Source of the DNA: Cyanobacteria bacterium M_surface_10_m2_119
GTDB lineage: Bacteria > Cyanobacteriota > Cyanobacteriia > PCC-6307 > Cyanobiaceae
DNA: 33,307 bases
Direction of reading: 5' to 3'
NCBI GenBank assembly: GCA_016882525.1
Contig: VGPU01000025.1
Location: 1-33,307, forward strand
Shown here: positions 15,961-17,669 of the stretch, piece by piece
How the letters are laid out: each line of letters starts with the position of its first letter
Position numbering within the stretch: the first letter of the stretch is position 1
Notes under the pieces: generated by a model
Told to the model about the DNA's origin: nothing
What the model saw: only the letters and a program-made list of their open reading frames with translations
The model's database searches: none
Translations under genes and position numbers: made by a program

Positions 15961-16614
15961 CTAGACCCGGCGCCGGTAGCGCAGCAACAGTTCGTCGCCC
16001 CCGAGGGGCCGCTGCTCCTGCAACTGCCAGCTCGCAGCGGCAGTCTGCGGGCCAGGCAGCAGGGGTTCGGCAGGGAGCCAGCTGTGGGACCCGCCCAGCA
16101 GCAGGGGGCAGAGGGTGAGCTGCAGCTCATCCACCAGCCCCTCCGCCAGCAAGCTGCCGGCCAGGGCGGCGCCACCCAGCAGCACCAGCCGCTGCAGACC
16201 GGCATCCGCCAACGCCGCCAGCATCTCGGACCAGCCCGCTTGGCACACATGCCGATGGAACCCCTGCGGCGGGGCGGCCCGATCGGCAGGGGGATGGGGC
16301 ATCAGCAGCCAGCGCTGCAGCGGCTGCCGCCAGAACGCCAGATCGGTCGGGAAACGGCCACTGCGGCTCACCACCAGGGCCGTCGGCTGGGGCGGCCGGC
16401 CGCAGCGCTGGCGCTCCGCCAGCAGATCAGCGGCATGGATCAGGCAGGTGCTGCCATGACAGCGCAGGGTTTCAGCGCCGAGAAGGGCACCATCGGCCCA
16501 GGCAAGGGCCTCTTCGAGGGCACGGCGATCGCCTGGTCCCCCCAGCTGGGCCGCCCCACCGGTGGCTGGAGCCAGGCGGCCATCCAGGCTGACCGCCAGC
16601 ACCAGACGCAGCAT
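15961..16614 (-). CDS. RibD C-terminal/DHFR-like reductase
   Basis: A 217-residue stand-alone RibD_C domain (DHFR-like fold, NADPH-dependent). It begins LRLVLAVSLDGRLA, the family's first strand, followed by DGALLGAETLRCHG (about 42-55), and LVLLGGAALAGSLLAEGLVDELQLTLCP (two parts, about 140-170), the nucleotide-binding GG motif plus VDE. No deaminase domain is fused, so it is not a full RibD. It starts five bases after the pterin synthase stop, so they share an operon. Riboflavin-pathway reductase is the default family reading; a pteridine reductase is a context-based alternative discussed in the findings. Confidence 0.82.
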   Translation of the reverse strand: MLRLVLAVSLDGRLAPATGGAAQLGGPGDRRALEEALAWADGALLGAETLRCHGSTCLIHAADLLAERQRCGRPPQPTALVVSRSGRFPTDLAFWRQPLQRWLLMPHPPADRAAPPQGFHRHVCQAGWSEMLAALADAGLQRLVLLGGAALAGSLLAEGLVDELQLTLCPLLLGGSHSWLPAEPLLPGPQTAAASWQLQEQRPLGGDELLLRYRRRV

Positions 16615-16619
16615 CAGGT

Positions 16620-17669
16620 TCAGCCCGCGACCGCCAGATCCAGGGCTGCCGGCACCATCTCCAGCTGGGGAGTCTCGGCGAACACCTCGGCCGCGTTGTT
16701 GGGGCTTTCCTGCAGGCGCACCTTGTGCAGCCGGGCACCGGCCGCGGCAATGGGCCCGGTGAGCAGATCGGCGATGTGCAGGGCGATGTTCTCGGCCGTG
16801 GGCACCGTGGTGGCGAAATGCTCCACGTCCTTGTTGAGGAAGGTGTGATCGAAGGGCTCCACCACCAGATCGTCAACCAGGCGCTGGAGGGTGGCCAGAT
16901 CGCATACCATGCCGGTGCGGGGATCGATGCGGCCGCGCACGGTCACATCCAGCAGGTAGTTGTGGCCGTGGCCGTGGGGCCGGGCGCACTTGCCATAGAT
17001 CGCCTCGTTTTCGGCCTGGCTGAGCTCGGCCCTGGCCAACCGATGGGCAGCGGCGAAGTGGGTGCGGATCGAGAGGAAGGCTTCCATCGGGGCAACAGGC
17101 TGAGCGGTGGACAGGTCGGCTTGGGCAGGGGCAACGGCAGGGCCGGGAGGGAGCAGGTCCACCCAGAGATCGGGTTGCTCGTAGAGGCGCAGTCCCATCA
17201 GCGGCAGATGGGGGGCCAGGCGGATCCAGATGGCGCGGCAGACCGCCTCGGTGGTGGGCAGGCAGCCCTCGGGCCGGCTCAGATCAAAGTCCGGCCAGGC
17301 CTCATTGAGGAAGCGGAAGTTGAGCTGGTCAGTGACCTCAGCACGGATGGCGTGCTTCACCTCCGAGAGGTTGAGCACCATGCCGTCGCCATCCAGCGGC
17401 CCGCCCATCGCCACGATCAGCTCGTAGTTGTGACCATGGCCAGGAGCGAGGCTGCAGGGCCCGAAGCGGGCCCGGTTGTCGTCGTCGCTGAGCTCGGGCA
17501 GCCAGTAGCGGTGGCTGGCGCTGAAGGTGGCGCGGCGGGTGATGACACAGGGGCGCCCCTGGCCGTGGGGGCCTCCCCGCTGCGGAGGCATCGGCGCACC
17601 GGGGAGCGCGTTGCCTGAATCCGTATCACCTAATTCCGTGGTGCGGGGAGCTGCGGCGCTTGCCGTCAT
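16620..17669 (-). CDS. Tandem-domain 6-pyruvoyl/6-carboxy-tetrahydropterin synthase
   Basis: A 349-residue protein with two PTPS/QueD domains, about 43-175 and 196-335, each using dihydroneopterin-triphosphate chemistry in the family. Zinc histidines are present in both: His53, His78, His80 and His209, His234, His236. The catalytic Cys occurs in both as C-x5-HGH (Cys72, Cys228), a spacing like animal PTPS rather than E. coli QueD (C-x3-HGH). The Asp-His dyad is intact in domain 2 (FDHTFLN, Asp274/His275) but replaced in domain 1 by LNFRFLN (Asn117/Phe118). Thus only domain 2 looks fully competent. ATG 17669 gives a 40-residue leader that looks unstructured; ATG at residue 28 is an alternative. 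Confidence 0.88.
   Translation of the reverse strand: MTASAAAPRTTELGDTDSGNALPGAPMPPQRGGPHGQGRPCVITRRATFSASHRYWLPELSDDDNRARFGPCSLAPGHGHNYELIVAMGGPLDGDGMVLNLSEVKHAIRAEVTDQLNFRFLNEAWPDFDLSRPEGCLPTTEAVCRAIWIRLAPHLPLMGLRLYEQPDLWVDLLPPGPAVAPAQADLSTAQPVAPMEAFLSIRTHFAAAHRLARAELSQAENEAIYGKCARPHGHGHNYLLDVTVRGRIDPRTGMVCDLATLQRLVDDLVVEPFDHTFLNKDVEHFATTVPTAENIALHIADLLTGPIAAAGARLHKVRLQESPNNAAEVFAETPQLEMVPAALDLAVAG

Follow-up and report, generated by a model that had tools for sequence, protein, structure and literature searches.

A two-module PTPS-II of a cyanobacterium with a complete second module and an incomplete first

What does the front half of a pterin synthase contribute when its active site lacks a catalytic residue and a second, complete module follows it in the same chain? 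The question is raised by a gene within a 33,307-nucleotide stretch of contig VGPU01000025.1 from Cyanobacteria bacterium M_surface_10_m2_119, referred to here as the window. Sequence comparison and structural modelling together suggest that the protein is probably a bimodular PTPS-II, in which module 2 would be catalytic and module 1 would be an ancient pseudo-module that completes the barrel and whose metal site is still used.

The gene and its two modules

The gene occupies positions 16620-17669 on the minus strand, which also carries every other feature of the window given below, and encodes 349 residues with no internal stop before the TGA at 16620-16622. The Pfam PTPS profile matches two stretches of the protein (7.3e-58; domain scores 119.7 and 79 bits), and a single chain thus carries two PF01242 modules. 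Module 1, the incomplete one, spans residues 39-175 (17145-17555) and is joined to module 2 by a linker of residues 176-194 (17088-17144), which is predicted to be disordered and is longer than in most cyanobacteria. Module 2, which is complete and closest to human and rat PTPS, spans residues 195-333 (16671-17087).

The earlier note on this DNA had seen zinc histidines and the cysteine of a C-x5-HGH motif in both domains, and both are present. The zinc ligands of module 1 are His53, His78 and His80, the latter two lying with Cys72 in the motif at 17430-17456; those of module 2 are His209, His234 and His236, with Cys228, His234 and His236 in the motif at 16962-16988. The residue numbers given for the catalytic dyad also proved exact when the codons were checked: Asp274-His275 in module 2 (motif FDHTFLN, 16845-16850), and Asn117-Phe118 in the corresponding position of module 1 (motif LNFRFLN, 17316-17321). 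In rat PTPS the pterin is anchored by Glu107 and Glu133, which we take to be the equivalents of Glu141/Glu164 in module 1 and Glu293/Glu321 in module 2. Module 2 contains the full PTPS-II catalytic set of zinc His, Cys, Asp-His and two Glu, whereas in module 1 the dyad His is missing.

Conservation and loss of the module 1 site

Conservation was assessed in 129 distinct tandem sequences including the window's own, a sample heavy in close relatives, with about 107 from one family. The proposal of one complete and one incomplete domain in a single chain is borne out throughout: module 2 never varies at the Cys, the Asp, the His, any of the three zinc His or either of the two Glu (129/129), and module 1 lacks the dyad His in all 129, with Phe at its position in 124 sequences and Tyr in the other 5. 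That the whole dyad is replaced in domain 1, as the earlier note had it, is right for this protein; among the homologues the His is lost everywhere, and Asn117 is a minority state at a position that usually holds Asp (Asp 112, Asn 16 and Gly 1 of 129). As judged from the alignment, the universal change in module 1 is the loss of the dyad His, rather than of the Asp.

The rest of the module 1 site is largely kept. None of the 129 homologues departs from its three zinc His, Glu141 or Glu164, and neither does any row of a second, broader alignment of 37, where the dyad-His position holds Phe in 31, Tyr in 5 and Ser in 1. Cys72 is more variable, being retained in 121 and lost in 8 of the 129, and retained in 27 and lost in 10 of the 37 rows; in the proteins that have lost it, the standard triad would be unusable by module 1. 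Overall conservation of the modules is about equal, with 41 of 137 columns invariant in module 1 and 53 of 139 in module 2. With its zinc and Glu residues invariant in most lineages, module 1 appears from these comparisons to be more than a case of simple decay. An alternative Asp/His pair filling the site, which the earlier note had named as the observation that would speak against its reading of domain 1, is absent among the conserved residues: the sequence search found only the zinc ligands as invariant His in module 1, and in 112 of 130 rows the stretch between residues 107 and 136 lacks His altogether. Such a replacement pair was rejected on this sequence comparison.

What, then, is module 1 kept for? 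One indication comes from family f9 (five genomes), where module 1 has lost every zinc ligand, the Cys, Glu164 and the dyad His, with Glu141 remaining, and yet the module itself is retained beside an intact module 2. Retention after the loss of nearly the whole site argues for a structural role, which agrees with the earlier suggestion of a structural domain 1, and it means that complete sites in f9 could be formed only from module 2 together with module 2. Against a purely structural part, the invariant zinc and Glu residues of module 1 in nearly all two-module forms exceed what a mere spacer would need.

These same residues leave room for another reading, partly compatible with that of a bimodular enzyme with a pseudo-module, in which module 1 has a different chemistry of its own or serves as a pterin-binding regulatory site, its zinc and Glu residues holding the pterin and an aromatic residue standing in for the base. 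The invariance of the zinc His, Glu141 and Glu164 (129/129) and the almost constant replacement of the dyad His by an aromatic residue are consistent with this, and zinc-ligand loss in three-module forms (below) suggests a function that can be replaced. The site is nevertheless dispensable in f9 and the ligand binding is putative, a prediction from sequence, so that we regard this reading as possible but rather unlikely.

The three-module forms occur in family f7, where 16 of 145 genomes (loci L202-L217) encode a PTPS of about 430 residues. The module inserted in the middle of these proteins carries a complete triad and QueD-like C-x3-HGH spacing, and it clusters in the tree with PTPS-II module 2 (94/86). 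At least one module 1 zinc ligand is lost in 16 of 16 three-module proteins, which come from related genomes and do not represent 16 independent events, against 0 of the 14 two-module f7 relatives sampled. The losses differ among these proteins (H53R; H53C, H53G or H53S; H78Q), and this variety suggests that the constraint on module 1 may have been relaxed once the middle module arrived.

Predicted fold and ring geometry

In urate oxidase and GTP cyclohydrolase IB, the two T-fold modules of a chain lie next to each other within the same barrel. An AlphaFold2 model of the window protein (pLDDT 84, pTM 0.79), in which the N-terminus and the linker are disordered, aligns with both enzymes across its two modules: with urate oxidase at Z 12.9 over 231 residues (4.1 Å), and with GTP cyclohydrolase IB at Z 11.7 over 202 residues. 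They resemble the window protein in having two T-fold modules per chain, but are only 5-11% identical to it and unrelated in sequence and chemistry. Modelled module 2 alone matches PTPS structures at Z 17.8 and 1.9 Å. The W169-H204 spacing is just 16 residues in 95 of 130 rows, so that the flanking strands are only about 4-6 residues apart. This short link, together with the tandem T-fold alignments, leads us to favour a model in which modules 1 and 2 would sit side by side in the ring. Module 1 would then complete the T-fold barrel beside module 2, with its metal site being of secondary use.

In PTPS, as recorded in UniProt and in papers on the rat enzyme, the Cys comes from one subunit and the Asp-His pair from another. 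The title of Burgisser 1995 speaks of an "intersubunit catalytic triad", and PTPS assembles as a dimer of trimers whose sites lie between three monomers (PMC7546909). Because the triad forms between subunits, complete sites in the two-module protein would most likely arise where one module 2 contacts another, and the zinc, Cys, Asp-His and pterin-binding Glu would all be supplied by module 2. An active window protein, an inactive module 1 and module 2/module 2 pairing are, on this comparison, the most likely state of affairs. Complete sites would in that case be carried by half of the modules, in line with the half-sites oligomer that the earlier note proposed.

A PTPS ring consists of three subunits, and two-module chains therefore cannot tile it symmetrically. 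The fusion could instead have altered the geometry, giving a four-module ring like that of urate oxidase in which module 1 is an obligate pseudo-subunit with its zinc site still used; the third module present elsewhere would then allow one chain to form a ring of three, freeing the module 1 zinc site. We consider this geometry unlikely, if worth stating.

Less likely still is a complementation between unlike modules, in which Asp274-His275 of a module 2 would reach across the interface to complete a working site with the zinc and Cys of module 1. The intersubunit triad named in Burgisser's title would permit it, the module 1 zinc and Glu residues never vary in two-module forms outside f9, and, with the same exception, the module 1 zinc site decays only alongside a third, complete module. 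However, module 2 never loses its own zinc and Cys, which would sit idle, the module 1 Cys is lost in 10 of the 37 rows of the broader set, and the zinc site of module 1 is wholly absent in f9. As a general rule this arrangement was rejected on the strength of f9 and the Cys72 losses, and we hold it to be very improbable.

Enzyme identity, pathway context and distribution

Among solved structures, the best relatives of the window protein are the PTPS enzymes of human, C. elegans and rat, each of which matches module 2. Rat and human PTPS (1gtq, 3i2b) are 41-44% identical to it and share its C-x5-HGH, Asp-His, zinc His and Glu residues, but they are single-module proteins forming a hexamer of identical subunits, whereas the window protein has two modules per chain. 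C-x5-HGH is the published signature of PTPS-II and C-x3-HGH that of QueD (PMC5041015); both modules carry the former and neither carries the latter, in keeping with the earlier note's choice of PTPS over QueD from this spacing. That a QueD (queuosine) enzyme has been misread as PTPS is extremely improbable, for although the NCBIfam QueD model TIGR03367 is matched (109.8 bits, cut-off 89.25), the motif and the human and rat relatives disagree with the assignment, and a QueD-like gene of one domain is present elsewhere in the genome, as is QueC. E. coli QueD (4ntk) has superfamily and fold in common with the window protein, but differs from it in its C-x3-HGH motif, single module and place in the queuosine pathway.

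A single-domain COG0720 protein of this genome (L233:641-1105, contig C12 of genome G000) has HGY in place of HGH in its zinc motif and scores under the QueD cut-off. Standing in a QueC-bearing genome, it is a candidate for an unusual QueD or for a member of another subfamily.

As a PTPS-II, the protein would make 6-pyruvoyltetrahydropterin from dihydroneopterin triphosphate, on the way to biopterin-type pterins. The genome contains folE, and an SDR gene (NF005672) ends 8 bp upstream (L232:1385-2871, contig C6 of G000). Its product scores 66 bits against the sepiapterin reductase model TIGR01500, far under the cut-off of 206.55, and is likely a pterin reductase as judged by position. With folE and this SDR side by side, and with QueC and the QueD-like gene separate, PTPS-II fits a biopterin-type pathway.

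Within the window, a RibD_C-type reductase gene with RibD_C only (15961-16614, minus strand) follows the PTPS gene downstream after a gap of 5 bp. The reductase lies within about 85 bp downstream in all of about 107 same-family loci except L078, with some frames overlapping, and about 0.6 kb downstream in one genome of family f10 (G399). Most cyanobacteria have, in addition to a full RibD, homologues that are unlinked and about 40% identical. The product of the window gene is a candidate pterin reductase. Outside the window's taxonomic family, no conserved PTPS neighbour was common to the 20 loci sampled.

Of the 213 genomes in the class, 209 match the window protein; those re-examined include three that have a single-domain paralogue only. 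In the tree, the module 1 sequences of cyanobacteria fall into one clade and the module 2 sequences into another (100/100 and 95/86), which points to a single old duplication or fusion predating the spread of the cyanobacteria sampled, although the long branch leading to module 1 makes its root placement unsure. Module 1 would accordingly have begun as an ancient paralogue, fused ahead of module 2, and would have lost its dyad His while keeping its zinc and pterin-anchoring residues. A phage origin was also considered and dropped, with a single weak partial match among 50,697 phage records.

The dual-domain PTPS-II of Synechococcus sp. PCC 7942 is likewise cyanobacterial and two-module, and its activity is reportedly above that of the human enzyme. 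It goes back to Kong et al. 2006 (FEBS Lett 580:4900), as cited by PMC5041015 and PMC3546692; PMC5041015 gives it PTPS activity in vitro, and none of the features described for it there differs from the window protein. Nearly all cyanobacteria have a two-module PTPS and the tandem was already known, so that the window gene is ordinary, a standard cyanobacterial pterin gene.

The most interesting part of the analysis is the three-module comparison. The series of one-, two- and three-module proteins, with its graded loss of the module 1 site, may be a natural experiment in the evolution of a pseudo-subunit inside one chain, of relevance to oligomeric enzymes whose sites lie between subunits.
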